Assembly: GCF_025362475.1 (NCBI RefSeq)
Contig: NZ_JANYGH010000065.1
Coordinates: 1 to 64,000 of the forward strand
Reading direction: 5' to 3'
Length of the DNA stretch: 64,000 nucleotides
Source of the DNA: Mucilaginibacter sp.
GTDB taxonomy: Bacteria; Bacteroidota; Bacteroidia; Sphingobacteriales; Sphingobacteriaceae
The position numbers and the translations under genes were made by a program. The notes beneath the pieces were generated by a model. It was not told the origin of the DNA, made no database searches, and saw only the letters and a list, made by a program, of their open reading frames with translations. Positions within the stretch are counted from its first letter, which is position 1, and each line of letters begins with the position of its first letter. This document shows positions 22,775 through 62,015 of the stretch, piece after piece.

Positions 22775-24451
22775 TTATTTTAGCTTTTCCACACATTTGT
22801 TAAGTTGTATTTTAACATGGTCCTCTTCCTTTTTAGTAGCTATAACTTTTGTTAAAGCAGCCTGGTAATATCCCAAAGCTTTTTTGTACTCGTCATGCTT
22901 AAACGAATAATCGCCGGCTATTACGTAGGCATGGTAGTATTGAGGATTGGTAGCTACCAGGCTATCGGTATTTATAGTTTCGCCATCAAGCACACGCTGC
23001 TTCATTTTACGGAAGCTCACAAAATCCTGGTATTGCGCGGTTGAAAGAAAAGTATCTGCCGGTACCGTGAGCTCCTGCTCGTTAATTTCCTGATCTTTTT
23101 TCATATCCCGCAAGCCAAACACTTTCTTCAGGTCATAGGCCACATATTCGCCCAGTTGCCACGGCGAAGTGCTTACCCAAACCAACAGTTTCTTAGGCTC
23201 AAAAACAATGCTGTGGTGCGACATTAGCTGGTTGATGGCTTTCTCGTTACCCATGCCAATATCTGCTCCATGCATACCTTTCTGATCGCGCAATATCGCT
23301 ATGGTTTTTTGTACTGTATTTTTGCCATTGGCATTCAGCAATTCCATGAGGCGGTTATACCGGTATGGCGATGCACTCTCGGCCACCTGGATCTTATTTT
23401 CTTTTGAATGAATGAGGCCCTTGCTCTGGAAATGGTTGGCACAAACAATGTAATCCTGGTGCGGATCGTACATATCCAGCGTATCGGGGGTTTTCTCAAT
23501 CACAACAGCTTTGTTATCGGCAGCAGAGGCAACCAGGAAGGCTTCAGATACAAACATCTTACGCTTTTTAGCAATAGCATATGCTTCCTGTGTGTTTTTA
23601 GCATACTGCAATATCTCGCGTGCTACCAATGATACCGGCGTAGCCGCTCCTGTAGGAATATTAGTTTTATCGGCATTGATGGTTACACTCACACCTTTTT
23701 CATTCATTCCGGATACTGCGCCAATAAACCCCCCCCAGGTAACAGTCATAAATTTATACCCTTCGGTGGGATTAAAAAATGCCACGATCTTATCCTGCGC
23801 AAATTTATCGCCCACGTAAAAATCAAAATTACGACCAATGATCATCGTGCTATCCTCAGATTTTACACCCCAGGTGCCAAACGATGTACAGCCCACCAAA
23901 GCCATACTTTGCAGCGCATGGCCAATATCATGCGCGGCATGGTAGTTCAATATTCGCTGGTAGTTGGAACCAATGTACTGGTACTTATCTGATGCCGATT
24001 TAGAGATCCCGTAGATCTCTTCCTTGTATTCCTCCGTAACATTTTTATCCAGGTTGCGGTTAAACCAGGCGATAAAGTATTTTAAAAAATGCTGGTAAAA
24101 TTTAGAGGGCACTATCCTGCCTATCTGCTCTACAAAGTGGTCTTCCTGTGCCACAACCAGTTCCTGGCTCAGTTTGCCGTTAATAACGCCACGTTCAAAG
24201 GGTTTCCCCTCTACATACATTTCAAATAAACCACTTTTACTTTTGCGAAACCAGTCATTTTTAATGGTGTAAAAACCTTTGGAAGGCTCAGCCCGCTGTA
24301 GTTCCAGGCTGCTCAAATCTTTAGGCTCGGGCGGGTAATCAATTGCTACCGCATACAGGTAAACCATGCCAATAACAATCAGCAGCACAAAACCCAGGAA
24401 AACATACAGTATCCTTTTCCCAAACTTTTTCCAGCTGAATTTCTTATGCAT
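22775..24451 (-). CDS. C45-family peptidase / acyl-CoA:6-APA acyltransferase-like protein
   Basis: The 558-residue protein has one N-terminal membrane helix (about 14-35), then an Ntn-hydrolase domain of the C45/AAT type. The key segment LVGCTSFGTWG puts the likely nucleophile at Cys188, followed by IIGRNFDF and the VTWGGFIGAVSGMNEKGVSV core. A TPR-like end (about 500-558, with AGDYSFKHDEYKKALGYYQAA) follows. Family members hydrolyse or transfer acyl groups. It overlaps the phytoene-desaturase-like gene by 8 bp and lies at the left edge of the flexirubin-type cluster, so a role in pigment assembly or turnover is likely but unproven. Confidence 0.8.
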   Translation of the reverse strand: MHKKFSWKKFGKRILYVFLGFVLLIVIGMVYLYAVAIDYPPEPKDLSSLELQRAEPSKGFYTIKNDWFRKSKSGLFEMYVEGKPFERGVINGKLSQELVVAQEDHFVEQIGRIVPSKFYQHFLKYFIAWFNRNLDKNVTEEYKEEIYGISKSASDKYQYIGSNYQRILNYHAAHDIGHALQSMALVGCTSFGTWGVKSEDSTMIIGRNFDFYVGDKFAQDKIVAFFNPTEGYKFMTVTWGGFIGAVSGMNEKGVSVTINADKTNIPTGAATPVSLVAREILQYAKNTQEAYAIAKKRKMFVSEAFLVASAADNKAVVIEKTPDTLDMYDPHQDYIVCANHFQSKGLIHSKENKIQVAESASPYRYNRLMELLNANGKNTVQKTIAILRDQKGMHGADIGMGNEKAINQLMSHHSIVFEPKKLLVWVSTSPWQLGEYVAYDLKKVFGLRDMKKDQEINEQELTVPADTFLSTAQYQDFVSFRKMKQRVLDGETINTDSLVATNPQYYHAYVIAGDYSFKHDEYKKALGYYQAALTKVIATKKEEDHVKIQLNKCVEKLK

Positions 24452-25952
24452 TCCGTATTTTCCCTATTATGGCATCGTTGCCCAGTAAAGTAGTACAGGT
24501 AACTATAGCACTCATGGCTGTACCTAAAATACCATGTAAGTTAAGGTTTTGCCCGGTAAGATACAGGTTAGGTATTTTAGTGCGCGGTGATATAAATGTT
24601 TTTAGCGTGTGTTTATAATCTTTCACGATGCCGTAAAGTGAACCATCGCCGTTACCAATATAATCGCGGTAGGAGAGTGGCGTTGCCGAGTAATAGGATT
24701 TGATATGGCTCCTGAAATCCGGGAATTTCTTCTCCACCATGTCAAGCAATTTCTCACTTTTACGAATCTTGAACTCCTCATAAGTTTCGCCCCGTTCGTT
24801 AACGTTTGATACCGTATTAAAGGTGTCCTCCCAGGGTTTCATCTCCTCAAAGCGCATATAGGTGAGTATAGATGCACCATCGGCAAATTTGGCCGACCTG
24901 GAAGATGGAGCCATAAAATAGGCGTAACCAAGCGGCCAGTTCTCTTCGTTGTAATCGGCAATATCCCAAACGTGGCCATCCTTGCCAATGTAGTAGTTGG
25001 TGTTAAAATAAGGGAAGCTGTCCTTTTTAAAAACCACATTCAGCGTGAACGATGATACCGAGTTTTCCAGCCCTTTCAGGCGGTTGCGATAAGCCGGTTT
25101 AATCACATCAGAATCTGTCATTTCCAGCGTTTGCACCGGGTGCATGTTGCTGATAAACTGCCTGCCATAGATATTTACGCCATTGGCAGTTTCCACATGC
25201 GATACCTTTCCATCTTCCACAACAATCCGTTTCACCTCGCAATGGCGCTTGATAACTCCACCCCTTGATCGGATGTTTTTGGCAATATACTTTGCTATCT
25301 GCGATCCGCCGTCCACACATTTATAGGAACTTTCAATATAGCTGTTCAGGATGAGCGCGTGTACATAAAACGGGGTTTTATCTGCCTGTCCGGCATACAA
25401 GGCGTTATTACCCGCCAGTACAGCCTGCAGGCGCGGATTATCGGTTATAGATTCTATAAAACCTTTAGTGTCAATTTCCAGCACGGCCGACTTTTCGTTG
25501 AAATCATCGCCGCTTTTTAAGTTATACAAAGAGAATTTACTGCAAACCTCTTTGATCTTATCGCAATAGGTATTAAGCGCCGCTTCCTCGCCGGGGAAAT
25601 GTTTTAATATATGACTAATGAAATTATCGTAGCCCTGGGCATATTCGTATTCAGTTTCTTCGCCGTAAATACCAATCTTATCAAAAACAACATCCTGTTT
25701 TTGCAGCTTCAGCTTATCCATCAGGTTAAGGTATTTGAATATCTGGTACAGGTTTTGGCCTTCATCAAGCCCGCCAAGGTAATGCACGCCCGAGTCAAAG
25801 ATCACTTTATCGCGCACATAGGTTTGCAGCGAACCGCCAATCTGCTTGTTTTTTTCTATCACGCAAACCTTAAATCCTTCCCTGCTCAGTAAATCGGCGC
25901 TCACCAATCCCCCCATACCGCTGCCGATAATTACGGCATCATAAATCTCCAT
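24444..25952 (-). CDS. FAD-dependent oxidoreductase, phytoene-desaturase (CrtI)-like
   Basis: The 502-residue enzyme starts with a dinucleotide-binding motif (DAVIIGSGMGGLVSA, followed by an acidic residue in CVIEKNKQIGGS) and ends with the typical LTGQNLNLHGILGTAMSA segment. It is closest in style to carotenoid desaturase/isomerase and amine-oxidase-like enzymes. In flexirubin clusters such enzymes accompany polyene formation; whether it desaturates, isomerises or hydroxylates is unknown. It overlaps the C45 gene and is separated from the fusion gene upstream by a palindromic repeat. Confidence 0.82.
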   Translation of the reverse strand: MEIYDAVIIGSGMGGLVSADLLSREGFKVCVIEKNKQIGGSLQTYVRDKVIFDSGVHYLGGLDEGQNLYQIFKYLNLMDKLKLQKQDVVFDKIGIYGEETEYEYAQGYDNFISHILKHFPGEEAALNTYCDKIKEVCSKFSLYNLKSGDDFNEKSAVLEIDTKGFIESITDNPRLQAVLAGNNALYAGQADKTPFYVHALILNSYIESSYKCVDGGSQIAKYIAKNIRSRGGVIKRHCEVKRIVVEDGKVSHVETANGVNIYGRQFISNMHPVQTLEMTDSDVIKPAYRNRLKGLENSVSSFTLNVVFKKDSFPYFNTNYYIGKDGHVWDIADYNEENWPLGYAYFMAPSSRSAKFADGASILTYMRFEEMKPWEDTFNTVSNVNERGETYEEFKIRKSEKLLDMVEKKFPDFRSHIKSYYSATPLSYRDYIGNGDGSLYGIVKDYKHTLKTFISPRTKIPNLYLTGQNLNLHGILGTAMSAIVTCTTLLGNDAIIGKIRNA

Positions 25953-26118: not shown

Positions 26119-26130
26119 GTAAACCCGCTA

Positions 26131-29100
26131 TTATTTTTTTATTACAAAAGTAATATTTGAAGTGTACTTTGTTTCATCAATTATATGGCAGTCCATATTA
26201 TTGGCAGCCGCAATGTCCTCAACCAGTCGAGCTGATAAAAACGACAAGCCCTTGCTTGCCTTATTGAATTTCACAAACCTGGTTGAAAAAAACTCCGTAA
26301 GCTCGGTCCCCCGGTGCTTTTCTTTCAGGTCTTTATTGCCATCACGGATAATCATCATCCCGCCGGCATTCAGGCTGTTGATGCAGCGTTGCACAATCAG
26401 TTTTTGCTCATCGGGCTGCATATAATGCAGCATATCGGCAATAATAATGGCATCGTATTTTTCAAACTCAAAGTTGAGCACATCCGCATGTTCAAAATTG
26501 ATAAGCGCGTCTTTATTAAAGTTGTTATTGGCTAGTTCTATTTTATCCTCATCATAATCTATCCCGGTAAACTCACGTTGCGGGGCAGCAAAGTGTAACA
26601 TATAAGGCATAAAACCATAGCCGCAGCCAATATCAAGCATTTTACCTTTTATAGGCAGCAGGTTATGAAATTGTTGGTAGTTTTTTTCTAATCTTACCTT
26701 AACCCTCATATACCACTCCAAAACCGGGCCCTTATAAAGGTAATTATATATCAGCTGCTCGCGGTAATAGCCCGGTTGCTGCACACCTGCGCACAGTTGT
26801 TTGTATTCGGCCTTAAAATATTTACTAATGGCTTTGGTGCGTTCATAATAACCTGTTCCAAAAGCACTGTCGCCCGGTTTTATACGGGGCAGGTATTTGA
26901 GGGTGATCTTGCCGTTCTTTAAAAGAAAATCACCCTTGGTCATACAATAGCCGGTGCCGTGGATGAGTATCGGCTGAATATCCATATTCAATTGTTCGGC
27001 CAGGTAAAACGCCCCTTTGTGAAAACGCTTAATATCCCCGTCAACAGAGCGGGTACCTTCGGGGAAGATCACGATAGAGTAACCTTGCTGTACCCTGCCA
27101 GCCAGCAAATCGATATTAGCTTCGGTACCCTGGGCTACCGGGAAATAATCGGCCATGCGCACCACCGCGCCAAATACCGGCGAGTTCCATACCCAGTTAT
27201 TGGTGAACAGGATGAGCTTCGGGTTAAGCATCACCAATATCAAAATATCCAAAAACGATTGGTGGTTGGCAATGATCACCGATGGCTTATTAAAATCGGC
27301 AAGCTGCCTGTTAATGATCTCCTTTTTCACATTCCCCATGATATAGATCATTGACCAGGAAAACCGCGCGAGGATAGCATGATAAACCAATTTTCCTTTT
27401 TCCTTGCTGAACGGATTCAGCCTGAATAAAAAGCCTAATGCCGATAGGATTAAACAGCCCGTTACAAAATAAGTGAACGCGAAAACACTGATCACAAAGC
27501 CGCTGATGGTCCAGGGGAATTGCTTTTTCTGTGTGCGGTTTTTAATGAGGATATTGAACAAGAAAGGGATCAGTATCTGCGACATGATGACCACACAGCA
27601 GATCCCGATGATGGAAATAAAAGCTATCGACCGCAAAGCGGGGTGTTTGGCAAATATCAATACCCCCAAACCGGTAATGGTAGTTATAGCCGATAAAAAG
27701 ATGGATGATTTATAAGATGATAATACCTTTTTGCCTGTTTTGTATTCTTGCAGCAGGCCATCCATAATGTACAGGCTATAATCATCACCCAAACCAAATA
27801 TCAGGGCCGATATAATGATGTTCACTATATTAAAGCCAATGCCGAAAATCCCCATCAGCCCTAAGATCCAGATCCATGAAATAGCCATCGGGATAAAGGA
27901 GACCAGCGCCAATTCCATACGGCCGTAGGTTAACAGCAGCACCACAAAAACCAGCAGGGATGACATGACCGCTATTTTGGTAAAATCGGCATTAATGATC
28001 TCCACCAGTTTATTGGTAAGGTATTGTTTATCTATAACGGTAACATTAGGGTCGTTTTCAAAGGCTTTGTAAATGGCGGCTTTTTTATCAGCCGATGTTT
28101 GCACCAGCGTTACTACTGTAGAATGGCTGGGGTACTCGTTAATAAAATTATCCAGGAAACTCTTCCTGATCCCGGCTACATCACCTTCATTTATGTTCGA
28201 AAAATCTTTGTTGAGCAGCGTTTTAAATTTATCAAAGGCCGCGGCACTGAAACCTTGTAATTGGCCTTCCTTATCCAGGGTGGCAAACAGTTGCTGTTTC
28301 TTTCCGGGAGTCCAGTAAGTATTCCAGCGGGCGATCCGTGCTTTTTGCAGGGAATCGGAAAGGATAAATGACGATACATCTGAGGATTTTTTTACGATAC
28401 CCTGCGCCTTTAGCTTTTCAATTTGGGCCGCCAGCTTTTCATTATTCACCAAAGCCCTGTCCAACGTTTTCCCTTCGGATACCAGGTACACCGATTGCAG
28501 CGCGTACTGATTGATCTTGTTGAGCTTATTTTGCGATTGCTGCAGCTGCAAAGGCATGTAGTTCATTTTGGCAACATCAAACTCAAAGGTTACATCATTG
28601 GCCTTGTAAAAAAACACACCGGTAAGCAGTATAATACCGGTAACAATGAACTTATTATACTCGGGATTAAAAGAGGCCAGCTTATCTATCCACGAAAGCA
28701 GGATCACCTGGTGGTTTTCCTGTTCTTTTTTGGTCGATATAAACTGCGGCAAAAATACCAGCGAGCAAATGGATGCACCTATCAAACTAAAGGCGGCAAA
28801 AAGGCCCAGGTCTTTCAGCATTTCCGATTCTACAAACTCCAGGCACAGGAAACCGCCAATGGTGGTAAAGCTGCCAACGGTAAGGGGCATTACCAAATCT
28901 TTAAGTACCTGCTCCACACTTTTGGTATGCCGGTAATGGTTAAATACATGCAGTGAATAATTGATAGCGATGCCCAGCACCACCGAACCCGTGCCCAAAG
29001 CGATAACCGAGATGCTACCCTTTAAAAAGTAAATGGCCGTTAATGAAAACAGTGAGCCAAACAGCACCGGGATTAAAATAATTATGGGTGCCCGCTTTTT

Positions 29101-29976
29101 TCTGAAATATAAACCTAAAAACAAAATAAGGGCCAGCACTGTGATGCCTTGCGTAAGCGCGGTATCTTTCCGTAGTTGTAAAGCGTTGCCGTAATATACT
29201 GCCGCCGAGCCAAAATAGGTGGCCGTAACAATTCCTTTAGGCTTATTGCTCAGGCTATCTATCAGCTGGTTTAAGCCTTTTATTAAAACGCCGTTCTTCC
29301 CGGTATTATTTGGCGGGTAGGCCGGGGTGATAAACATGAGCAGGGTTTGATGATCTTTAGTGACCACATAGTTATCATACAGTTCAAAATTTTTATCGTA
29401 CTGCAATTGCTGTAACTTTTTTAGTCCGATGAAGGAGATACCAACGGGATCGTTACTGATGATGCTTTTTAGGGCTATACTTGCCGGCGATGCAAGCGTG
29501 CGGTAATCGTATTGAAGGGTTTGTTTTACTTTTGCCGGGGTAATAAGGGTATCAATGGTTTGGTAATCCTTCTCCGTTAAATAAACAGGCAGCCTTTGGG
29601 TAATGGCGCCAAACAGCTTCATCACTACATCATCATCAACCTTAAAATTGGCTTTGCCTATATAGGGTTTAAATTGGGGTTCAGCGGTAGCCGCAAATTC
29701 ATCGGCAAATGCTACAAGGCTATCCGGGTTTGCAATAGCGGTGCTGTCTTTTAGCGATACCATGATCACCAACTTATCCAAAAATTTGGAGTTCTGGAAA
29801 ACCTCGTTCAGTTTGTTGATCTTTTTATCCTTCGGGATAACCTTGCTGATATCTTCCTCAAACTTTACCTGCGAAGCAAAATACCCCATGAACAAAAAGC
29901 ATGTGGCAAATACAGTATAAAAAACAGCCCTGTTCCTGGCAAAATAATGGTATATGAGGATAAGGCCTTTTTCCAT
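26131..29976 (-). CDS. Trifunctional MMPL exporter / lysophospholipid acyltransferase / SAM methyltransferase
   Basis: This single 1,281-residue protein joins three domains. Residues 1 to about 815 form an RND/MMPL exporter with two sets of membrane helices (around 275-410 and 665-810). Residues about 860-1,060 form a PlsC-type acyltransferase with NHQSFLD (His905, Asp910) and FPEGTR (971-976). Residues about 1,100-1,281 are a class I methyltransferase with MLDIGCGYG (1,113-1,121). In arylpolyene clusters the equivalent functions are separate genes. The fusion suggests that lipid or polyene acylation, methylation and export occur at one membrane site. It follows the glycosyltransferase gene by 12 bp in the same operon. 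Confidence 0.93.
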   Translation of the reverse strand: MEKGLILIYHYFARNRAVFYTVFATCFLFMGYFASQVKFEEDISKVIPKDKKINKLNEVFQNSKFLDKLVIMVSLKDSTAIANPDSLVAFADEFAATAEPQFKPYIGKANFKVDDDVVMKLFGAITQRLPVYLTEKDYQTIDTLITPAKVKQTLQYDYRTLASPASIALKSIISNDPVGISFIGLKKLQQLQYDKNFELYDNYVVTKDHQTLLMFITPAYPPNNTGKNGVLIKGLNQLIDSLSNKPKGIVTATYFGSAAVYYGNALQLRKDTALTQGITVLALILFLGLYFRKKRAPIIILIPVLFGSLFSLTAIYFLKGSISVIALGTGSVVLGIAINYSLHVFNHYRHTKSVEQVLKDLVMPLTVGSFTTIGGFLCLEFVESEMLKDLGLFAAFSLIGASICSLVFLPQFISTKKEQENHQVILLSWIDKLASFNPEYNKFIVTGIILLTGVFFYKANDVTFEFDVAKMNYMPLQLQQSQNKLNKINQYALQSVYLVSEGKTLDRALVNNEKLAAQIEKLKAQGIVKKSSDVSSFILSDSLQKARIARWNTYWTPGKKQQLFATLDKEGQLQGFSAAAFDKFKTLLNKDFSNINEGDVAGIRKSFLDNFINEYPSHSTVVTLVQTSADKKAAIYKAFENDPNVTVIDKQYLTNKLVEIINADFTKIAVMSSLLVFVVLLLTYGRMELALVSFIPMAISWIWILGLMGIFGIGFNIVNIIISALIFGLGDDYSLYIMDGLLQEYKTGKKVLSSYKSSIFLSAITTITGLGVLIFAKHPALRSIAFISIIGICCVVIMSQILIPFLFNILIKNRTQKKQFPWTISGFVISVFAFTYFVTGCLILSALGFLFRLNPFSKEKGKLVYHAILARFSWSMIYIMGNVKKEIINRQLADFNKPSVIIANHQSFLDILILVMLNPKLILFTNNWVWNSPVFGAVVRMADYFPVAQGTEANIDLLAGRVQQGYSIVIFPEGTRSVDGDIKRFHKGAFYLAEQLNMDIQPILIHGTGYCMTKGDFLLKNGKITLKYLPRIKPGDSAFGTGYYERTKAISKYFKAEYKQLCAGVQQPGYYREQLIYNYLYKGPVLEWYMRVKVRLEKNYQQFHNLLPIKGKMLDIGCGYGFMPYMLHFAAPQREFTGIDYDEDKIELANNNFNKDALINFEHADVLNFEFEKYDAIIIADMLHYMQPDEQKLIVQRCINSLNAGGMMIIRDGNKDLKEKHRGTELTEFFSTRFVKFNKASKGLSFLSARLVEDIAAANNMDCHIIDETKYTSNITFVIKK

Positions 29977-29988
29977 TTAATGGCTTAC

Positions 29989-31179
29989 TTAGATAGCAGC
30001 AGGAGCTTTTTTCAATAATTTAAGCAAGGCATACGTTATCAGCCCAACCGTAAGGGATGCAACAACAGCCAGTGTAAGACTGCCATAAATATATTGCTCC
30101 ATGTGCTCGCCAATGGTTTTGAAAGATATTTTTGAGCTGAACGCCATGTTGGTCACTTTATCGCCCATCCAGTACTCGCCGGCTTTATAGCTTAAAAATA
30201 TAACCACAGGAATCATAGGCGGGATACTGATGTGTGCCGAGAATACCACCAGCGCCTTATTGAGTTTAAATATGATAGATAAAAATATGGCTACCGCGAG
30301 TTGAAAACCCCAGATAGGTACTATCCCCATAAAAATACCCAAGGCAATTGATAAGGCCTTTACCTCGTCGGTATCGTTAGGGTTATACAGGGTGGCTATT
30401 ATCTTTTTACGTCCTTTTTTTTTTGATAAATCGAGAAAAAAGTTGCGCGGTTTGATCCAAACAAAGGCAATAACTACCAGGAAGGCATTCAATACGCCAA
30501 CCCTTGAAAAATCGGTAAAGGGCCGAAAGTGCGATACTCTCGTTTCTTTGGGTGCATAATAAACGCTTACCGGTACCGAATCCATGTGCACACCCCGCCA
30601 GGAGGCCCTAACTATCACCTCAATTTCAAATTCATATTTGCGGGTATAAAACTTCATCCCCTCTAACAGGTATAGCGGATAAAGCCGGAAGCCGGATTGT
30701 GTATCAGGGCAATGAATGCCTGTTTCCACCCAAAACCAAAAATTGGAGAATTTATGCCCGAAACTACTTTTACCAGGCACCGCCGCTTGTTCCATATTGC
30801 GGGAGCCTATGATGATAGCGTCCTGAACCTGTTCAAGCCTATTTAAAAAAGCGGGGATATCTTTAGCAAAATGCTGCCCGTCGGAGTCAATAGTGATGGC
30901 GTATTTGTAGCCTTTTTGCATGGCATAGGCAAATGCCTGGCGTAATCCCCAGCCCTTGCCTACATTATCAGGGTAACTAATAAGCTGTACATGAGGAAAT
31001 GTTTTTACAATAGCTTCGGTATCATCGGTTGAGCCATCATTAACAACAATGACCTGGCTGCTGTATGCAGATACATCGGCAATTACACTACCTAAAGTAA
31101 GGTGATTGTTATAGGTGGGAATAATAACACATACCTGCAGTTCATCAAACCGCTTACTTACTAAACCCTCAAATTCCAT
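29989..31179 (-). CDS. Family 2 glycosyltransferase fused to DUF2062 membrane domain
   Basis: The 396-residue protein starts with a GT-A domain (VIIPTYNNHLTLGSV, VVNDGSTDDT, then the metal-binding TIDSDGQH near residue 100) like polyprenyl-phosphate sugar transferases. Its C-terminal third is a DUF2062 membrane domain (about 270-390, with IALGIFMGIVPIWGFQLA). Arylpolyene clusters also contain a GT2-like gene of this sort, though pure flexirubins are not known to be glycosylated. It is the first gene of the leftward four-gene operon and is divergent from the tyrosine ammonia-lyase gene. Confidence 0.85.
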   Translation of the reverse strand: MEFEGLVSKRFDELQVCVIIPTYNNHLTLGSVIADVSAYSSQVIVVNDGSTDDTEAIVKTFPHVQLISYPDNVGKGWGLRQAFAYAMQKGYKYAITIDSDGQHFAKDIPAFLNRLEQVQDAIIIGSRNMEQAAVPGKSSFGHKFSNFWFWVETGIHCPDTQSGFRLYPLYLLEGMKFYTRKYEFEIEVIVRASWRGVHMDSVPVSVYYAPKETRVSHFRPFTDFSRVGVLNAFLVVIAFVWIKPRNFFLDLSKKKGRKKIIATLYNPNDTDEVKALSIALGIFMGIVPIWGFQLAVAIFLSIIFKLNKALVVFSAHISIPPMIPVVIFLSYKAGEYWMGDKVTNMAFSSKISFKTIGEHMEQYIYGSLTLAVVASLTVGLITYALLKLLKKAPAAI

Positions 31180-46630: not shown

Positions 46631-46631
46631 G

Positions 46632-47837: not shown

Positions 47838-47838
47838 T

Positions 47839-51907: not shown

Positions 51908-51918
51908 TGTTTTAAGCT

Positions 51919-52185: not shown

Positions 52186-52188
52186 TAT

Positions 52189-54227: not shown

Positions 54228-55237
54228 TTTATATTTTTGAGAACCGTAAAGGCCTTCTTTTCTATTTCGGCTATCTCAAACAAGTAATCGCCCATTACAT
54301 TAAAATCAGCCTGACTGCCAATACGCCCCTTGTATATGCCTGCTGCCTGCACCGCGGCTGTACGCCACAGATCACCGGCCTGGGTAAACATTTCTGATGC
54401 CCGAAGCAAGGTATCATTTGGTAAATAATCATTTGCCTGTTGTAAAAACGCGGCATATATATACCTGAAACCACCGCCACCGGTGCCAATTTCCTCCTGC
54501 ATCCGTACCAATTGGGCCAGGTAAAGACCGGCATCATGCAATCCTAATTTATCGCGCCAGCCTTTAATTTTATTACCGGTATATTTTATACCATTTACAC
54601 CAGCAAACCAACCGGGAATGGATAACATATTAAACACATTTTTTTTGATGCCGCTTTTGATGGCGCTCCTTATTTGCTCATCAGTAATTTCATTTTGATT
54701 GCCCGGATAATACAATTGGCCCCTGGGTGCTAATGCTCCTTTGGCAAAACGCACACGCTCCAACTCATAGCTGGTTAGGGTTGTGGCATGTTCCATAATT
54801 GGATCGCTGATGAGGTAGTTATCATCTTCCTTACCAAAAACAATCAGGTTATGGGCGTTAAAATGAAACCGGTATTCCTTTGGAAAGTACGACAGGTAGT
54901 AAACCCCCACCTGGCAACCCACCGGGTTGCCAGCGTTAAGGCTCTCCAATAAAAAAGATTTCGCACGCTCTTTTGAGCTGAACTTTTTCTGCACCACCGG
55001 TACACCCAATGATTTACATGTGCGGTTAAATATAAAACCAGGCATCGACCTAAAGGCGATGGCCGGCCCGTTGTTCACCTTTATCAGGGGCACGTATACA
55101 AAAAACAAACCTGCACCAATGCCAAAAGCCAGTGGCTCGGTTATTTTACCGTTTGATATTTTCTTTAATAAATTACTGGTAACCCCCGATTCGCAATGTG
55201 CCGCCTGTCCGTGTTCAAAATCAATCTTCATGCACAT
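54215..55237 (-). CDS. BtrH-like acyltransferase/peptidase-fold protein
   Basis: The 340-residue protein starts with a BtrH_N domain: HCESGV puts a likely catalytic cysteine at about residue 15, NAHNLIVFG the histidine and YLISDP the acid. The C-terminal half (about 190-340) resembles DUF4872. BtrH from butirosin synthesis transfers an acyl group from ACP to an amine, using a papain-like triad. Here it could move the polyene acyl chain from ACP to the DAR hydroxyl. This is inference; no flexirubin ester-forming enzyme can be named with certainty from the sequence. It overlaps the next small gene by 17 bp. Confidence 0.82.
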   Translation of the reverse strand: MCMKIDFEHGQAAHCESGVTSNLLKKISNGKITEPLAFGIGAGLFFVYVPLIKVNNGPAIAFRSMPGFIFNRTCKSLGVPVVQKKFSSKERAKSFLLESLNAGNPVGCQVGVYYLSYFPKEYRFHFNAHNLIVFGKEDDNYLISDPIMEHATTLTSYELERVRFAKGALAPRGQLYYPGNQNEITDEQIRSAIKSGIKKNVFNMLSIPGWFAGVNGIKYTGNKIKGWRDKLGLHDAGLYLAQLVRMQEEIGTGGGGFRYIYAAFLQQANDYLPNDTLLRASEMFTQAGDLWRTAAVQAAGIYKGRIGSQADFNVMGDYLFEIAEIEKKAFTVLKNIKWQS

Positions 55238-55628
55238 CCATACTTTTTAGCTCGTCGACCTTTACATTAAAGGCCGCGGCATATTTTTTCAATTTTGTTT
55301 CTGATAGTTTATTAAATACTTCGGGTTTTAAATGGCGCTTTATCTGCCATTTCCAAAACCCGGTATAATCGGCTAAAATACTAAAGTCCATCAGTCTTAA
55401 CTCCATAAAAAACAGGAGCGGACTGGCCTCATTATTTAAAACCTGTTGCTTTGCTTTAGCAATGCGCCCATCAATCTCCTCCCAGGCTACATCAAGCGCT
55501 TTTATTTTAACATCCCAGCCGTTGCTCAGCTGGGTAACATACTTTCCTGTACTATCGGTTGCGTAGCATACTTCCCTGGTTATTTTTCCAAGCGAACTCA
55601 GGTCCTGGGGTACGTTTTCTTTTTTCAT
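55221..55628 (-). CDS. Small conserved-type protein of the DAR operon, unknown function
   Basis: The 135-residue soluble, lysine-rich helical protein (starting MKKENVPQDLSSLGK) has no recognised motif. The ATG at 55,628 was chosen because the longer frame runs into darB. It lies between darB and the BtrH-like gene and overlaps the latter, so it is translated in the same operon and probably helps ester or DAR formation. Confidence 0.65.
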   Translation of the reverse strand: MKKENVPQDLSSLGKITREVCYATDSTGKYVTQLSNGWDVKIKALDVAWEEIDGRIAKAKQQVLNNEASPLLFFMELRLMDFSILADYTGFWKWQIKRHLKPEVFNKLSETKLKKYAAAFNVKVDELKSMDVHED

Positions 55629-55647
55629 GGTATATACACCTTTCCGC

Positions 55648-56796
55648 TTAACATACGGTAAGCATCGCATACATATACGAGAATCTTGAACTCTCGGGTA
55701 CCAAAAGCAGGATCTTTTCACCCACCTTTAGCTTACCGCTATGAAACAACTCGTTAATCATGAGGTAAACCGATGCTGCCCCAACGTTACCTACGGTAAA
55801 CAGGTTCATGAACCATTTTTCATAAGGGATGCCACCGCCGTATACCTCAACCATTTCATAAATTTTCGGCCTGAAAAAATCGCTGGAGATATGTGGCAAA
55901 AAGTAATCAATATCCTGGGTTGTTAACCCTCTTCTTTCAAAGATCTCTTTAATTTTCTGCCCTCCAAGCGGAACGATATTGTCGCTCAGTAAGCTAATAT
56001 CCTGCTTCACGCTAAAGATAGATTTGTTCTTGATCTCTTCGGGTGTAAAATCCATAAAACCCTTAAGGCTGCCATCGTCCTGCTTTTCGGCGCCCATGTA
56101 CATGCAGGCATCCATTTGGTTGGCGTATGATACACCTTCAATCCATTCTACCCGCAGGCTCAGGCCTGTTTCATTAGGTTTATCGGTCATTAAAAATGCC
56201 GAAGCACCATCAGATAGCATCCACCTTAAAAAATCTTTTTGAAACGCTATGTATGGATTCTCCGTAAGCTCCTTCAATTTTTGAGCTTCTTCCTCAAATA
56301 CATCAGAAACCAATAAGCCCGAAAATTTTTCAGATCCGGTTGCTACCGCCTGCTTAACCTCGCCCGATTTGATGGCCAGGTAGGCATATTTTAAAGCGTG
56401 CATTCCTGCGCAGCAAACACCAGATGGCGACACTACTTCAATAGCACCAGCCTCTGGCAACCAGCCATGTGTCATTACACCGTGGCTCGGCATCATTTGG
56501 TCTGGCGATGAGGTGCCGCATGATAGTAATTCCGTTTCTTCTATTTTGGCTTCGGTATTTTTAAATAGTTCCCTTACCGCCAGGGCTGTCATTTCCGCAT
56601 TGGTATGGGTAGATTTTTTATTTTTATCTAAAGCGTAATACCTGGTTTTAATGCCATTGTTACGCAGTACAATTTTTTTTGATTTTGATGGTTTGTTGTC
56701 AATATAACCCAAATACAGTTCCATATCATCACTCGCGACAGGCTCGTTAGGAAGAAAAGCAGATGTAGTATTTATATAAACCTGATTAAAAGACAT
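55648..56796 (-). CDS. darB: DarB-like ketosynthase III for dialkylresorcinol formation
   Basis: The 382-residue FabH-type enzyme has Cys129 in SGVCCAGMHA, His302 in LPHISSDFF and Asn337 in VGNVGAAS, a complete KAS III triad. DarB joins two fatty-acyl-type intermediates to a diketone-like product that DarA cyclises and aromatises to a 2,5-dialkylresorcinol. The gene follows darA by 7 bp, the normal order in flexirubin clusters. It is not a simple housekeeping FabH because of this context and the longer N-terminus. Confidence 0.85.
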   Translation of the reverse strand: MSFNQVYINTTSAFLPNEPVASDDMELYLGYIDNKPSKSKKIVLRNNGIKTRYYALDKNKKSTHTNAEMTALAVRELFKNTEAKIEETELLSCGTSSPDQMMPSHGVMTHGWLPEAGAIEVVSPSGVCCAGMHALKYAYLAIKSGEVKQAVATGSEKFSGLLVSDVFEEEAQKLKELTENPYIAFQKDFLRWMLSDGASAFLMTDKPNETGLSLRVEWIEGVSYANQMDACMYMGAEKQDDGSLKGFMDFTPEEIKNKSIFSVKQDISLLSDNIVPLGGQKIKEIFERRGLTTQDIDYFLPHISSDFFRPKIYEMVEVYGGGIPYEKWFMNLFTVGNVGAASVYLMINELFHSGKLKVGEKILLLVPESSRFSYMYAMLTVC

Positions 56797-56803
56797 GTAA
56801 GTA

Positions 56804-57703
56804 TTAATTTAGTTGTAAATAGTAGTTCTTTCTGGCTTCGATCCTATCACCAAAAAATGGTCGTATAAAAATCATATCCAGAATTAATAATATAGGTGCA
56901 CCAATAAACAAGGCAATAAAAAGATAATATTTAAATGCCGCAATCCAGGGCTCCTTTTTTTTGCGTTTGGCAATAAATTTTGCCCATACTGCAAAAATGA
57001 TTTTCGCCTTTCCCTCAATAAACATCAGCGGGTATTTTATGTGAACCGCTTCAAGGTTCATGAGTTCGTATTGCAGGCTTTCCCAGTATTCCATAGTGAT
57101 CCTGAAGGCTATCGCCCGCCCAAATTTAGCGGTATCTAATATTTCCTGCTCATCAATACCGGGCTTAGGGAATATATTAAGATAACGTTCTTTTTTACCG
57201 GTTAGCATCCAGTAAAAAATGGTAACAAAACTTATGGGGTTAGGATTTCTATCAACCAGGGCTATATTGCCTACCAGTTTAGCCCCTGCATCCTGGAGAG
57301 ATTTGCGAACCCGTTCAAAAGCATTTAACCACATGTTGCGCGCGGCGCTGATGGTAACAACCGGGGTACCTTTTAACACTTTTAAAAAATCCGGGTGATT
57401 AAGCAAGGAATTTGAAGGAATACTTGGTGATAAAAACCAGGGCTGATAACCCAAAATAATCAGATCGTACTTTGTTTCTTTTAAGGTAAAAGGCTGAATT
57501 TGGGCCGGCACACTTAAAACACAATCGGGCATCACATTAAAAAAACTGGATCCTGTCCATGGAAAAGGATAATTATCCACCATTTTTATAACAACCTTTT
57601 CAACCGAAAAGCCTTCATCAATAATCGGCTGGGTAAATGAGTCGATGATTTCGCCCATCTGTCCGGATTGGGTATAGTAAATAACTAAAACTTTTTTATC
57701 CAT
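56804..57703 (-). CDS. darA: DarA-like dialkylresorcinol condensing/cyclising enzyme
   Basis: The 299-residue protein starts with a flavodoxin-like fold (KVLVIYYTQSGQMGEI for FMN or related binding) and ends with a membrane-associated helix (about 266-283, YYLFIALFIGAPILLILDM). Homologues beside darB are annotated as the DAR condensing enzyme, required with DarB for ring formation. The flavodoxin-like start suggests a redox step in aromatisation. The upstream gene's stop overlaps its start. Confidence 0.75.
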   Translation of the reverse strand: MDKKVLVIYYTQSGQMGEIIDSFTQPIIDEGFSVEKVVIKMVDNYPFPWTGSSFFNVMPDCVLSVPAQIQPFTLKETKYDLIILGYQPWFLSPSIPSNSLLNHPDFLKVLKGTPVVTISAARNMWLNAFERVRKSLQDAGAKLVGNIALVDRNPNPISFVTIFYWMLTGKKERYLNIFPKPGIDEQEILDTAKFGRAIAFRITMEYWESLQYELMNLEAVHIKYPLMFIEGKAKIIFAVWAKFIAKRKKKEPWIAAFKYYLFIALFIGAPILLILDMIFIRPFFGDRIEARKNYYLQLN

Positions 57704-58215
57704 TACGCTGCCGGTTTAAGGTCTTCTGTGTGCAATACCTTTGAGGTTTTGCTATAGTCAACTACCGCACGTTGTACAACAGGCGATAGGCTGTTAAAGT
57801 TTTTTACCACCATATTTCTATCGTTTTCAATATCTGCACGGTAATGAACAATTTTGGGGGCCTTTTCCTGGATCACCAATCTAAGGAAATGCAGATCGGT
57901 ATTATCCGGATCGGCAAGCAAGGCTGTTTCCAGCTTTATGCGTCCGGCTTTAAAAAAGCGTAGTTTATCTTTAGGCTTACCAACCAGGCTGGCTTTTTTC
58001 ATTAATAAAGCACCTTCGTACCCCTCTTTCAGGTCGGTACCTGCATCGGTAAAAACGGATAGCTCCTGGTTTATTTCATCCACATTATCAGATGCCATTG
58101 CTTTATAAAAAGCGGCTTTCTCCAGTTTTTGCGCCCAGCCCTTTGTACTTCCGGCAAGCAAAACCGCCAGGAATAAACAAACAAAAGTAATGGGCCTTTT
58201 TATATAACTCTTCAT
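57703..58215 (-). CDS. Exported protein of unknown function upstream of darA
   Basis: The 170-residue product has a signal peptide (MKSYIKRPITFVCLFLAVLL, cleavage near GWAQ). The mature part is helical and polar. The ATG at 58,215 fits the signal. Its stop touches the darA start, so it is the first gene of the leftward DAR operon. No family is recognised. Confidence 0.7.
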   Translation of the reverse strand: MKSYIKRPITFVCLFLAVLLAGSTKGWAQKLEKAAFYKAMASDNVDEINQELSVFTDAGTDLKEGYEGALLMKKASLVGKPKDKLRFFKAGRIKLETALLADPDNTDLHFLRLVIQEKAPKIVHYRADIENDRNMVVKNFNSLSPVVQRAVVDYSKTSKVLHTEDLKPAA

Positions 58216-58531
58216 AAACCTAACCAAATGTAATAAATAATACGTGCAGCACAAACCAACTGTTGCTTTACGGATATAGTAGTATGCCCAACCTTTTAAC
58301 CGGCAATTAGTTTTAAATTTTTACCGCCGGCTAAATTAAAGCAACACGATATAAGATGTTTTATATTGATAATGGTTTAACCTATAGCCTAATAAATAGC
58401 ATTTGGACCATTAAAAATCGGTTTTCTTTCGCTTACTTTGGGGTTTGAATTTTTTTGAGGAACTTAATAGCATAAATATTTAACAGTATCTTCCCAAGCA
58501 TAAAGTATGACATTAGCAATAAGCGGTTTAC
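58216..58531. promoter_or_regulatory. Divergent promoter region of the DAR operons
   Basis: This 316-bp gap separates the leftward darA/darB operon from the rightward reductase-dehydratase-KS-ACP run. It is AT-rich and must hold promoters for both. No motif pair at correct spacing and no gene were identified. Confidence 0.45.
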
Positions 58532-59338
58532 ATGGATAAAACTCAACAGTTTGCTGGCTCATGGGCGGTAATTTTAGGCGGATCAAGTGGCTTTGGCTTT
58601 GCCGCTTTGCAAAAATTAGCCGCACATGGCATGAACATTGCCCTTTTATACCGGGAAACTGCTATTACAGAAAAACCGCTTAAAGAACAACTAACTCAAA
58701 TAGCAGCAGAACACAGCGTAACCATTTTACCTTTTAATATAAACGCTCTTGAACAAACCGGTCGCGATTTATTTTTAAAACAATTTGCCCAGCTTGCTGT
58801 ACATAAACATTGTGTTAAGTTATTGCTGCATTCCATAGCCCGTGGTAATTTAAAACCATTGGCAGCAGGAGCCAATAACGACCCCGTTCTTTCAATTGAA
58901 GATATACAGGCAACAACCTACGCCATGAGTAACAGTTTATTGGACTGGACAAGACTGCTGTTGGAGGCTGAACTTTTTAACCCTGATGCCCGGGTGATTG
59001 GTTTAACCAGCGATGGTGTTCATAAATACTGGGAAAGCTACGCGGCGGTATCCATTGCAAAGGCATCATTGGAGAGCCTTACCAGGTATATGGCAGTTGA
59101 GTTTAGCCGTTACGGATTAAAAACAAACCTGATACAGGCGGGGGTTACCGAAACGCCATCCTTAAAAAGGATTCCGGGCAGCGATAAATTGATAACACTG
59201 GCCGCGGCTAATAACCCAATGGGGCGCATAACTGTGCCAACAGATGTGGCAAATGTAATTTACATGCTTTGTACCGATGAAGCATTTTGGATAAATGGTT
59301 CATTAATTCATGTAGACGGGGGTGAACATTGTTTGTAA
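58532..59338 (+). CDS. Enoyl-ACP reductase-like SDR (FabI type)
   Basis: The 268-residue short-chain dehydrogenase has GGSSGFGFAA for cofactor binding. Its active site reads SYAAVSIAK, a Tyr170-x6-Lys177 spacing as in FabI, not the Tyr-x3-Lys of FabG ketoreductases. An enoyl reductase is needed to saturate the alkyl chains of a dialkylresorcinol but not for a polyene, so it belongs to the DAR arm. The dehydratase gene follows after 17 bp. Confidence 0.82.
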   Translation: MDKTQQFAGSWAVILGGSSGFGFAALQKLAAHGMNIALLYRETAITEKPLKEQLTQIAAEHSVTILPFNINALEQTGRDLFLKQFAQLAVHKHCVKLLLHSIARGNLKPLAAGANNDPVLSIEDIQATTYAMSNSLLDWTRLLLEAELFNPDARVIGLTSDGVHKYWESYAAVSIAKASLESLTRYMAVEFSRYGLKTNLIQAGVTETPSLKRIPGSDKLITLAAANNPMGRITVPTDVANVIYMLCTDEAFWINGSLIHVDGGEHCL

Positions 59339-59355
59339 ATATTAGTTTTTGATAC

Positions 59356-59817
59356 ATGATGAATAACCATATACTTAATCATTTACCCTATAAATCAACG
59401 TTTCGCTTTATTGATAACATTACATCGTTGAATGAGGATGGTGTTACGGGCGATTTCACGTTGAAGCAGGATGCCTTTTTTTACGAAGACCATTTTGAGG
59501 GCAACCCGGTTACACCCGGTGTTATCATTACAGAAATTATGGCCCAGATTGGATTGGTGGTACTGGGTATATTTTTAATATTGAAGGAGCCAGGGAACGA
59601 TTTTACCAGCGACTCTTCCTTATATCCTGTACTTACCTCAACCGATGTTTCTTTTTATAAAATGGTATTACCCGGTCAAAAAGTTACCGTTATTTCCAAA
59701 AAACAGTATTTCCGTTTTGGAAAACTGAAGTGTACTGTGGAGATGCTGGACAGCTCAAAGGAGATTGTAGCAAGAGGAACATTTGCCGGCATTATTAAAC
59801 ATATTGACTTAAAATGA
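59356..59817 (+). CDS. 3-hydroxyacyl-ACP dehydratase (FabZ-like), DAR arm
   Basis: The 153-residue hotdog protein has FYEDHFEGNPVTPGVI (about 42-57), the FabZ active-site segment with its histidine, and the start LPYKSTFRFID, a variant of the usual LPHRYPFLLVD. It should dehydrate intermediates before the FabI-type reductase. Its end overlaps the KS gene (ATGA). Confidence 0.88.
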   Translation: MMNNHILNHLPYKSTFRFIDNITSLNEDGVTGDFTLKQDAFFYEDHFEGNPVTPGVIITEIMAQIGLVVLGIFLILKEPGNDFTSDSSLYPVLTSTDVSFYKMVLPGQKVTVISKKQYFRFGKLKCTVEMLDSSKEIVARGTFAGIIKHIDLK

Positions 59818-61115
59818 GCAGGCGTGTTGTAGTTACAGGAATGGGCGTTGTATCGCCAAACGGAATAGGCATCAGCGCTTTTTTAAATGCCATACAAAAT
59901 GGCATATCGGGCATAAAATTTATGCCGCTTTACGAAGAATTAAAGTTTAGCTGCCAGGTTGCGGGCAAACCCAGCTTTGTATTAGAAGATCTTAAAAATA
60001 AAAATTACATATCCGAAGTTACTTTTCATGGTTTAAAAGGCACCAACATCGGCTATGGCTTAATGGCCGCCCTTGATGCCTGGACAGATGCCGGCTTAAC
60101 CTATGATACCGATGAGCCCCGCTGGGAAACCGGATGCATTTTTGGAAACAGCGTTTCTGATACGGAGGCCATGAAAAATGTAATTACCCGGGTTGATAAC
60201 AAAGAGGTGAAAAAATTAGGCTCGCGCGTGGTTGAACAAGCCATGAACAGCGGTGTAACCTCCTATATATCGGGCAGGCTGGGCCTGGGCAATAAGGTGA
60301 TCACCAATTCGGCAGCCTGCGCAACGGGTACACAGGCCATTTTAATGGGCTACGAAACCATTAAAGATGGCTATGCCAAACGGATGCTGGTTGGCAGCAG
60401 CGAATATGTGGATACCTATGTATTCGGTTCGTTTGATTCTATGCGGGTACTATCCCGTAAGTTTAACCATGAGCCAGAAAAGGCATCACGTCCCATGAGC
60501 ATAACGGCCGGCGGCTTTGTTCCCGGATCGGGCGCAGCCGCATTGGTTTTAGAAGACCTTGAATTTGCCCTTGCACGCGGCGCAACAATTTATGCCGAAG
60601 TTTTAGGCGGATCAGCCAACAGCGGCGGCCAGCGCACAGGCGGATCAATGACGGCAGCCAATCCGCTGGGTGTAATAAGATGTATAGAGGAAGCCATGGC
60701 CAATTCCCAAATCACGGGGCAGCAAGTTGATCTCATCAGCGGCCACCTTACTGCCACAAATGCCGATATGCAGGAAATTCAAAACTGGTGTAAGGCCCTG
60801 AACAGATCAGGAGATGATTTTCCGTTGATGAATTCCCTCAAATCAATGATCGGTCATTGCTTAAGCGCGGCTGGGTCTATTGAATCTGTGGCATCAATAT
60901 TGCAAATTGTACATGGGTTTGCACATCCAAACATTAACCTTGATGACCCTAATCCGGAAATAAGTAAACATATCAACTTAAACCGTTTGCCTACTTCTGT
61001 AGTCAATAAAGATATAAATATAGTTGCTAAGGCCAACTTTGGCTTTGGCGACGTAAATACCTGCTTAATATTTTCTAAATTTAACCCTGATGACACGACA
61101 AGAAATTTTAATTGA
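59814..61115 (+). CDS. Beta-ketoacyl-ACP synthase (FabF-like), DAR arm
   Basis: The 433-residue synthase has Cys169 in NSAACATGTQ, His311 in ISGHLTATNADM and His348 in SMIGHCLSAAGS. The HGTAT motif is altered to HLTAT, but the catalytic histidine is kept. It is coupled to the dehydratase before it and overlaps the ACP after it by 26 bp, making a complete elongation set with the reductase. Confidence 0.9.
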   Translation: MSRRVVVTGMGVVSPNGIGISAFLNAIQNGISGIKFMPLYEELKFSCQVAGKPSFVLEDLKNKNYISEVTFHGLKGTNIGYGLMAALDAWTDAGLTYDTDEPRWETGCIFGNSVSDTEAMKNVITRVDNKEVKKLGSRVVEQAMNSGVTSYISGRLGLGNKVITNSAACATGTQAILMGYETIKDGYAKRMLVGSSEYVDTYVFGSFDSMRVLSRKFNHEPEKASRPMSITAGGFVPGSGAAALVLEDLEFALARGATIYAEVLGGSANSGGQRTGGSMTAANPLGVIRCIEEAMANSQITGQQVDLISGHLTATNADMQEIQNWCKALNRSGDDFPLMNSLKSMIGHCLSAAGSIESVASILQIVHGFAHPNINLDDPNPEISKHINLNRLPTSVVNKDINIVAKANFGFGDVNTCLIFSKFNPDDTTRNFN

Positions 61116-61347
61116 ACTAAGAAAAGTTTTATCGCCATATACCCTTGATAAAGAAACACTGGCTAACATTGATGAAGGCACCAACCTTATTACAGACTTG
61201 AAAATAAACTCGGCCAATCTTGTTGATATCATTATTGACGCCGAAACCAAATACAACATTGAAATAGATTACGACGCTGCCGATAAAATGGTAAATGTGG
61301 GCGGCTGTATTGATGTAATAGAAGAAAAGACAAACCAGCAAATATGA
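61090..61347 (+). CDS. Atypical acyl carrier protein, DAR arm
   Basis: The 85-residue protein has the carrier fold pattern but its attachment site reads LKINSANLVDIII, with Ser41, instead of LGLDSIDL. The changed Asp before serine and the altered following residues should alter recognition by transferases. The Sfp-type transferase encoded next, overlapping by 4 bp, may be its dedicated activator. Confidence 0.82.
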   Translation: MTRQEILIELRKVLSPYTLDKETLANIDEGTNLITDLKINSANLVDIIIDAETKYNIEIDYDAADKMVNVGGCIDVIEEKTNQQI

Positions 61348-62015
61348 TCATAAGTGCCGGTAATGATATTGTAGACCTTGGTACAATTAACGCTACGCGT
61401 ACAAAAGAACCAAGGTTTTATACAAAATTTATTACCGGTACCGAAACGGCATTACACAACCAGCCCCACCTGGCCGATATGCCGTTCGAATATTTTGTAT
61501 GGATGCTTTGGTCGGTTAAAGAATCTGTTTACAAATTCATACAAAGGCACCATCCCGGCCTTGTTTTTTCTCCCTCAAAAATTACTATTGAACAAATTGA
61601 ATTGCAACGGGAGGCTTCCATCCCGGCAATAACCCAAGCCCAAATTGAAGCTAAAGGCTTTGCCGGGCTAACTACTTATAACGCCATCATTGCCTTTGGT
61701 ACAGATAACTTTTATTCGAGATCGATAGTCAATTCAAATTATATAGCTTCAACTGTAAACAACAGCAAGGATTTTGAAAATATATACTGGGGCATTAAAC
61801 ATATTGACCAAACCGAGCCTGAAAATCAATCAAGAGCGGTAAGGCAATTCCTTTTAAAAAAGCTGGCTTCTGTTTTTGACACGGATGATTTACATATTAT
61901 TAAAAACAGTTCCGGATGCCCGGTTTTATTCAATGGAGATAATAGGGCAGATATCCCGGTTTCATTGGCTCATCATGGTCATTATGTAGCTTATGCTTTT
62001 CCTAATCTCCAATAA
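61344..62015 (+). CDS. Sfp-type 4'-phosphopantetheinyl transferase
   Basis: The 223-residue enzyme has GNDIVDL (7-13) and the WSVKESVYKFI motif (about 56-66), the Mg and CoA-binding pair of this superfamily. It is larger than AcpS (124 residues, at 42,770), as Sfp-type enzymes are. It overlaps the atypical ACP gene by 4 bp. It is the last gene of the pigment cluster on this side. Confidence 0.87.
   Translation: MIISAGNDIVDLGTINATRTKEPRFYTKFITGTETALHNQPHLADMPFEYFVWMLWSVKESVYKFIQRHHPGLVFSPSKITIEQIELQREASIPAITQAQIEAKGFAGLTTYNAIIAFGTDNFYSRSIVNSNYIASTVNNSKDFENIYWGIKHIDQTEPENQSRAVRQFLLKKLASVFDTDDLHIIKNSSGCPVLFNGDNRADIPVSLAHHGHYVAYAFPNLQ

Follow-up and report, generated by a model that had tools for sequence, protein, structure and literature searches.

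A complete-looking flexirubin gene cluster of Mucilaginibacter with both arms in one locus, and DarH as candidate for the enzyme that forms its ester

Flexirubins, the orange pigments of a wide range of Bacteroidetes, consist of an aryl polyene joined by an ester to a dialkylresorcinol (DAR) and shift in colour with KOH; their genes fall into a polyene arm and a DAR arm. According to PMC3992019, the darA and darB genes of Flavobacterium johnsoniae sit among the other genes of one cluster of 37 kb, and Chitinophaga pinensis has its arms split into flxA-flxY and a separate dar locus. The same paper reports that flexirubins vary in chain length, methylation and chlorination, places a polysaccharide deacetylase among C. 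pinensis flxP-flxU, and suggests a ligase-like protein, FlxW, for ester formation in that species. The activities of FlxA and FlxY come from the literature on C. pinensis and the roles of DarA and DarB are literature-based as well. In Azoarcus sp. BH72 the arcuflavin genes lie in three loci, and the pathway begins with chorismate-derived hydroxybenzoate (XanB2 type) in place of a product of FlxA; the available portion of PMC3949708 lists a 'BtrH-like peptidase' in its gene table and names no enzyme for the joining step. We present an analysis of 64,000 nucleotides from Mucilaginibacter sp. (contig NZ_JANYGH010000065.1, positions 1 to 64,000), a stretch that we call the window, and of the flexirubin-type locus at 22775-62015 within it. 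Its gene content makes us confident that this is a complete-looking, ordinary flexirubin cluster of Mucilaginibacter, and we lean towards one of its proteins, DarH, as the best candidate for the enzyme that forms the ester.

Genes were called as open reading frames (ORFs) with Pfam domains, and NCBIfam models with curated cut-offs were used to name the dedicated families. The locus holds 40 genes (Table 1), with both arms together, and seven of the proteins exceed curated NCBIfam cut-offs: FlxA, FlxY, LolA2, LolB2, DarB, DarG and DarH. A type II set of ketosynthases (KS), ketoreductase, dehydratases (DH) and acyl carrier proteins (ACP) for polyene extension is all present by Pfam and motifs, and a motif scan finds the active-site Cys motif kept in five ketosynthases. 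The genes for export and the outer membrane are there too, LolA2 and LolB2 over their cut-offs and the MMPL, GT2 and NodB proteins by Pfam. The first-pass annotation had described a flexirubin-type cluster with two arms in a single locus of about 39 kb, and this description holds given the seven family models and the neighbours found elsewhere. Every gene type it had listed was found where it had been placed, DarA by position only. Its count of five ACPs and two phosphopantetheinyl transferases is also borne out, with the fifth ACP lacking a Pfam match and scoring below the NCBIfam cut-offs.

The nearest named relative found is Mucilaginibacter sp. FT3.2. It is the top match (92%) in a DarB scan of named genomes, which may have passed over the record of the window itself or a very close one, and the next matches are Mucilaginibacter or related records at 78-84%. 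All 40 genes lie on one FT3.2 contig (NZ_JACHCR010000011.1) at 58-94% identity, 38 of them at 77% or more, and FlxA is 94% identical. The antiporter, the KS4/CLF2 pair (CLF, chain-length factor) and the module headed by a FabI-type reductase are all among them, and so is the ORF that begins at 62112 in the window. FT3.2 differs in that its DAR block has the opposite orientation with respect to the polyene genes, and its copies of a phosphopantetheinyl transferase and of NodB are 58% and 73% identical. More widely, we sampled 296 Bacteroidota genomes, including the window's own (6.45 Mb in 79 contigs), with profiles for FlxA, DarB and DarH. FlxA is over its cut-off in 25 of them, again counting the window's. 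Ten FlxA neighbourhoods were taken with 40 kb on each side, and the seven with long runs of the cluster genes serve as our comparison clusters (G253, G170, G238, G012, G118, G226 and G206). The three left out are G099, which meets a contig end, G269, where only FlxA and the ketoreductase match strongly, and G017, where only FlxA does. The class assignment is thus well supported, since it rests on dedicated family models as well as on neighbours in other genomes. The locus adds one more likely flexirubin producer to a genus in which such clusters are already common among public genomes. It is very improbable, in our opinion, that the locus is decayed or silent and no pigment is made. Two genomes of the same genus (G214 and G261) do show only weaker matches in the sample, with neither FlxA over its cut-off nor DarH, but all 40 frames of the cluster are free of stops and their identity to FT3.2 argues against decay.

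A single locus is not new, since darA and darB of F. johnsoniae lie within its cluster. By the text of that paper, and not gene by gene, the F. johnsoniae cluster resembles ours in keeping both arms together and in its similar size. Two comparison clusters of the same class (G170 and G206) have the two arms with one ketosynthase of the KS3/KS4 type, and the 40 kb on each side of their FlxA contain no FabI module and no antiporter. C. pinensis, again by the text, shares FlxA, FlxY, the KS set, the deacetylase, LolA, a glycosyltransferase and the exporter, unlike the window in its split arms. The gene order of the DAR arm can be compared with Azoarcus: positions 49671-57703 read CLF2, KS4, ACP4, ABC permease, ATPase, DarH, DarG, DarB and DarA, which is the order darK-J-C-I-F-E-D-B-A, except that between darI and darF Azoarcus has two more genes, which carry the labels PilT and Prevent-host-death. 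Azoarcus also has, by annotation, an Na/H antiporter, deacetylase, halogenase, LolA and exporter (PMC3949708). The gene letters differ between sources: the NCBIfam DarH is Azoarcus darE (the BtrH-like protein) and the NCBIfam DarG stands at the position of Azoarcus darD.

The argument for DarH draws on its predicted fold, its conserved residues, the described mechanism of CcbD, the predicted role of CtaG, and its co-occurrence with DarB and FlxA; together these make it the best candidate for the ester synthase. DarH matches the family profiles PF14399 (156 bits) and PF16169 (184 bits) as well as its own NF053550 (443 bits). An alignment of 72 sequences, made from 71 of 77 DarH loci plus the window (sequences were dropped for coverage below 85%, minus strand or a stop), has Cys15, His129 and Asp145 invariant in all 72. 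An AlphaFold2 model built from 62 of these rows has a predicted local distance difference test score (pLDDT) of 90.5 and a predicted template-modelling score of 0.89. This predicted structure matches CtaG, CcbD and AziU2-U3, with Foldseek E values of about 1e-9 for the best rows and VIA Z scores of 22-24 over 292-307 residues; the next rows reach 13.5. The DarH profile searched against PDB sequences gives weak matches only (E of 0.0012 or higher), to chains named sc-apCC. CtaG and CcbD resemble DarH in the predicted fold over its whole length and may correspond to it in Cys, His and acid positions of similar number, with identities of 11-15% and with amide bonds described as their products. 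The PDB titles record the CtaG variants C11A, H128A and D144N, near the DarH residues in number, a correspondence taken from the titles.

The literature describes CcbD as a carrier-protein-dependent ping-pong acyltransferase with a Cys-His-Glu triad that takes fatty acyl groups (PMC12945683). CtaG is predicted to move hydroxybenzoate between carrier proteins, onto a chain on the second one (PMC6772006). By analogy, Cys15 of DarH would be loaded with the polyenoyl chain carried by its ACP, and a phenol of the dialkylresorcinol would then receive the chain, giving the ester. We think it somewhat more probable than not that DarH builds the polyene-DAR ester in this way, by a ping-pong mechanism of the CcbD/CtaG type with an ACP-bound polyene as donor and the phenol as acceptor. 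If this is true, DarH would represent an O-acylating branch in a family whose members of known structure are described as amide-forming. The comparison also names a single gene whose loss would probe how the two halves of a flexirubin are joined. We found no literature that names a joining enzyme other than FlxW, and none that joins CcbD with BtrH, in a coverage that was mostly at the level of abstracts and had subscription journals largely outside it.

The distribution of DarH follows the two arms closely. It is over its cut-off in 23 of the 296 genomes, all of them among the 25 with FlxA, and DarB scores at least 518 bits in each. DarB in turn is over its cut-off in 22 genomes, every one within the 23, and the remaining genome, G017, has a DarB of 519 bits. 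Below the cut-offs are four weaker relatives of DarH (152-186 bits), as well as the DarB-like proteins (380-405 bits) of G254 and G280, two genomes that lack DarH. Among the 25 genomes with FlxA, only G118 and G238 are without DarH. G118 has a polyene cluster with the C45-family and LpxL-like proteins, no DarB over the cut-off (best E 1.1e-6) and no DarH. Around DarB itself the link is not strict. We collected 81 DarB loci (80 loci of named genomes and one viral contig), several of them short, so absence from a locus is not absence from the genome; DarH lies near DarB in 77 of the 81. Three named genomes have no DarH near DarB; in two of these it lies at another place in the genome, and the third has just a distant relative. 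FlxA was looked for in 50 of the 80 named DarB genomes and is found in 45 at E 1e-130, over the cut-off in 43. A second set of 22 genomes was used to place the antiporter and FlxA on contigs; four genomes (L101, L107, L115 and L126) are common to both sets and 12 are in neither.

A less likely alternative, which we still take seriously, is that another acyltransferase of the locus (the C45 protein, the LpxL-like protein or the acyltransferase domain of the exporter) or FlxW makes the ester, and DarH does something else, for example in DAR maturation. The candidates are plausible acyltransferases and they are conserved, with the C45 and LpxL-like proteins in all seven comparison clusters, and FlxW is the protein suggested for the ester step in PMC3992019. 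The exporter match in G118 covers the MMPL part only (residues 8-813), so its acyltransferase domain may track the DAR arm too. On the other hand, the C45 and LpxL-like proteins are kept in G118 and so do not follow the DAR arm, while DarH does in the sample of 296; a single genome carries this argument. G238, which has no DarH, keeps the exporter fusion at nearly its full length, and no FlxW was identified in the window.

We still prefer DarH for this step, and it is important to realize that several points count against the pathway as we read it. His9, His14 and His125 of DarH are invariant as well, and the choice of His129 leans on the CtaG numbering. The known structural relatives of DarH form amides, and making an ester with a phenol would go beyond what they do. 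In G238 a long polyene cluster is accompanied by a DarB-like protein of 499 bits (cut-off 550) on another contig, with no DarH; this genome possibly makes a flexirubin-like pigment joined by another enzyme, or a free dialkylresorcinol. Four of the five loci from genomes lacking FlxA at E 1e-130 (L098, L111, L112 and L138, all metagenome-assembled genomes, or MAGs) still carry DarH near DarB, with that of L112 cut by the locus end. DarH is therefore not strictly dependent on FlxA, unless these assemblies are incomplete; the four may have gaps in their assemblies, or may make DAR pigments from a different starter. In addition, no family model in Pfam or NCBIfam matched DarA, and the halogenase and the ring methylase may have the roles given below, which are assigned by homology.

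The scheme that we propose for the rest of the pathway is as follows. FlxA would deaminate tyrosine to 4-coumarate, which FlxY would then activate. Extension of ACP-bound chains to the aryl polyene would fall to KS3/CLF1 and the remaining ketosynthases, working with the ketoreductase and the dehydratases. The ring methylase is likely the methyltransferase domain of the exporter fusion, and ring chlorination is possibly carried out by the halogenase-like flavoprotein, both judged by homology. That flavoprotein contains GAGPAG and WVWVIP, which fit GxGxxG and WxWxIP, motifs diagnostic of flavin-dependent halogenases. In the DAR arm, DarB would join two fatty-acid intermediates and DarA would aromatise the product to the dialkylresorcinol, with acyl precursors probably coming from KS4/CLF2/ACP4 and from the FabI module. 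The finished pigment would be moved to the outer membrane by the MMPL protein, the ABC transporter and LolA2/LolB2.

Table 1. Genes of the flexirubin-type locus in the window, with the evidence for each assignment
Gene or product	Position	Strand	Evidence
C45-family autoproteolytic acyltransferase/hydrolase (AAT-like)	22775..24451	-	NF040521 231 bits, cut-off 85; 7/7 comparison clusters
FAD oxidoreductase, CrtD/carotenoid-isomerase-like	24444..25952	-	Pfam; NCBIfam below cut-offs; 6/7 comparison clusters
MMPL exporter + acyltransferase + SAM methyltransferase fusion	26131..29976	-	Pfam domains in order
GT2 glycosyltransferase with DUF2062	29989..31179	-	Pfam; 7/7 comparison clusters
FlxA tyrosine ammonia-lyase	31520..33088	+	NF053541 837 bits, cut-off 700; ASG motif
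SDR ketoreductase	33133..33861	+	Pfam
Ketosynthase KS1 (FabB/F-like)	33965..35182	+	Pfam; active-site Cys motif
ACP1	35196..35453	+	PF00550
FabZ-like dehydratase	35499..35921	+	NCBIfam FabZ 23 bits, weak
4HBT thioesterase	35974..36399	+	PF13279
FAD-dependent halogenase-like flavoprotein	36527..37777	+	PF04820; PDB 3nix 599 bits; CmlS 138 bits
ACP2	37784..38041	+	PF00550
LolA2	38303..38944	+	NF053544 (LolA2_flexi) 223 bits, cut-off 125
LolB2	38907..39539	+	NF053540 125 bits, cut-off 60
FabA/PKS-DH-like dehydratase	39669..40034	+	PF07977 27 bits, cut-off 23
Na+/H+ antiporter-like membrane protein	40031..41491	+	PF00999; FT3.2 cluster copy 87%
FlxY 4-coumarate-CoA ligase	41472..42773	-	NF053551 671 bits, cut-off 520
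AcpS-type phosphopantetheinyl transferase	42770..43144	-	PF01648 66 bits
ACP3 (73% identical to ACP1)	43647..43904	+	PF00550
LpxL-like acyltransferase	43904..44782	+	PF03279; 7/7 comparison clusters
Ketosynthase KS2	44817..45944	+	Pfam; Cys and two His motifs
Short KS-like subunit	45980..46630	+	weak KS matches below cut-offs; no His motifs
KS3, polyene-arm ketosynthase	46614..47837	+	Pfam, Cys motif; NodB-side tree group
CLF1, chain-length-factor-like partner of KS3	47767..48882	+	no active-site Cys motif; PDB 6qsp_B E 0.0013
NodB-type polysaccharide deacetylase	48876..49649	+	PF01522 112 bits; 7/7 comparison clusters
CLF2 (position of Azoarcus darK)	49671..50720	-	no active-site Cys motif; darK annotated hypothetical; position only
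KS4, DAR-arm ketosynthase (position of Azoarcus darJ)	50717..51907	-	ABC-side tree group; PDB 6qsp_A 185 bits
ACP4 (position of Azoarcus darC)	51919..52185	-	PF00550; 57/81 DarB loci
ABC transporter permease	52189..53472	-	PF12698
ABC transporter ATPase	53472..54227	-	PF00005
DarH (NCBIfam name; Azoarcus darE), BtrH-like cysteine acyltransferase, putative	54215..55237	-	NF053550 443 bits, cut-off 300
DarG (NCBIfam name; Azoarcus darD by position)	55221..55628	-	NF053545 195 bits, cut-off 170
DarB	55648..56796	-	NF053539 624 bits, cut-off 550
DarA by position; flavodoxin-like start	56804..57703	-	72/81 DarB loci; weak PDB match E 0.037
183-aa conserved protein beside DarA	57703..58254	-	58/81 DarB loci; no Pfam or NCBIfam match
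FabI-type SDR	58532..59338	+	best NCBIfam FabL 118 bits, below cut-off; Y(x)6K spacing by eye
FabZ-like dehydratase DH3	59356..59817	+	PF07977 49 bits
Ketosynthase KS5	59814..61115	+	Pfam; Cys motif
ACP5	61090..61347	+	NCBIfam ACP models at most 38 bits, below cut-offs; no Pfam match
Second phosphopantetheinyl transferase	61344..62015	+	PF01648 31 bits, cut-off 25

The first-pass annotation had also proposed that an antiporter, the NodB deacetylase and duplicated KS pairs are extra members that may define a variant product. This proposal is not supported: NodB is in all seven comparison clusters, the KS pairs separate at an old split with full support, and the antiporter has a counterpart, by annotation, in Azoarcus arcG. 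The C45 protein, exporter, GT2 protein, LolA, FlxY and LpxL-like protein are likewise found in seven of seven, the halogenase-like protein in six and LolB2 in five. NodB is therefore rejected as an extra gene. The fusion of MMPL, acyltransferase and methyltransferase domains was considered as an unusual feature and rejected as well, since the exporter is matched over 88-100% of its length in six of the seven (in G118 the MMPL part only). In the literature a polysaccharide deacetylase is also Azoarcus arcN and the Na/H antiporter is arcG (PMC3949708, Table 1).

The two KS/CLF pairs are KS3/CLF1 and KS4/CLF2, and the motif scan did not find the active-site Cys motif in either CLF1 or CLF2. A tree was made of 70 proteins with KS3 or KS4 as their best query and coverage above 85% (FT3.2 enters twice). 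In it 31 NodB-side proteins are split from 39 ABC-side proteins on one branch (support 100/100), a separation reached in none of 500 label shuffles; the rooting of this tree is unsure and the branch to the KS2 outgroup is very long. The single-branch split indicates that the pairs are old and, by position, arm-specific, and the comparison thus allots one pair to each arm. Of the 63 DarB loci that extend 6 kb or more downstream of DarB, 35 have KS4. We looked for it in 13 other Mucilaginibacter genomes, some of them MAGs; 12 have only KS3-level matches (46-47%) and FT3.2 has both. The idea that the pair was duplicated locally and so points to a new product is rejected, given the one old split and the absence of the second pair from 12 of these 13 genomes.

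The antiporter is in none of the seven comparison clusters, although G253 has a copy about 23 kb beyond its cluster, and at 50% identity or more it lies within 10 kb of DarB in two of the 81 loci (L085 and L096). In the set of 22 named genomes, FT3.2 is followed by two matches at 61-63%, neither of which shares a contig with FlxA. The case for the antiporter as an extra gene is weakened by the copies in FT3.2, L085 and L096 and, by annotation, Azoarcus arcG. It could still be argued that the antiporter, the second KS pair and the FabI module together give a distinct pigment, for example with other DAR chains or another polyene length. The restricted FabI module, the absence of KS4/CLF2 from 12 of 13 other Mucilaginibacter genomes, and the rarity of the antiporter near DarB, in the comparison clusters and on FlxA contigs would fit this idea. 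We consider it unlikely. Each element is also found elsewhere among loci of the flexirubin or DAR kind, and the arcuflavin loci of Azoarcus contain counterparts, by position or annotation, of the KS pair and the antiporter. Variation among flexirubins is already on record (PMC3992019), and gene content alone predicts no new scaffold.

The FabI-DH3-KS5-ACP5-phosphopantetheinyl transferase module is oriented divergently to the dar genes. The set of FabI, DH3, KS5 and ACP5 is present in 22 of the 62 informative DarB loci, which are those with at least 6 kb upstream of DarB, and the hosts belong to Mucilaginibacter, to some Chitinophagaceae and to a few Bacteroidetes records that are not assigned further. 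It is probably a dedicated supply of precursors for DarB. The FabI-type protein has no match among PDB sequences at E 1e-22, nor has the C45 protein at E 0.01. Just beyond the module is a 309-aa ORF (62112-63041, plus strand) with a sub-threshold SGNH match. It is seen in one of the 81 DarB loci, and the FT3.2 copy is 76% identical at the same end of the DAR block, so it possibly belongs to the DAR module.

DarG is present in 78 of the 81 DarB loci, and all 78 were aligned with the window (79 sequences, of which 63 were used for structure prediction). The model has a pLDDT of 88, and a C-terminal part of about 60 residues resembles Cro/XRE helix-turn-helix proteins. The best Foldseek E is 0.03, with a probability near 1 and a root-mean-square deviation of about 1-2 A for several matches. 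Nothing was found by Foldseek at E 0.001, and Pfam gives HTH_26 below threshold only (E 0.13). As a lead, DarG may be a small regulator, or the helix-turn-helix fold may be in structural use.

Six DarB loci (L136, L140 and L142-L145) have DarB, DarG and DarH with no DarA or ABC genes within the fetched stretch, and FlxA is in their genomes; their pathway genes seem to be scattered or diverged. The scan of viral contigs gave one contig with a DarB of 43%. At the left end of the window, 3735-7658 holds a C-5 cytosine DNA methylase and a large serine recombinase at 33-35% G+C, compared with 39-45% in the cluster, and this is possibly a mobile island.

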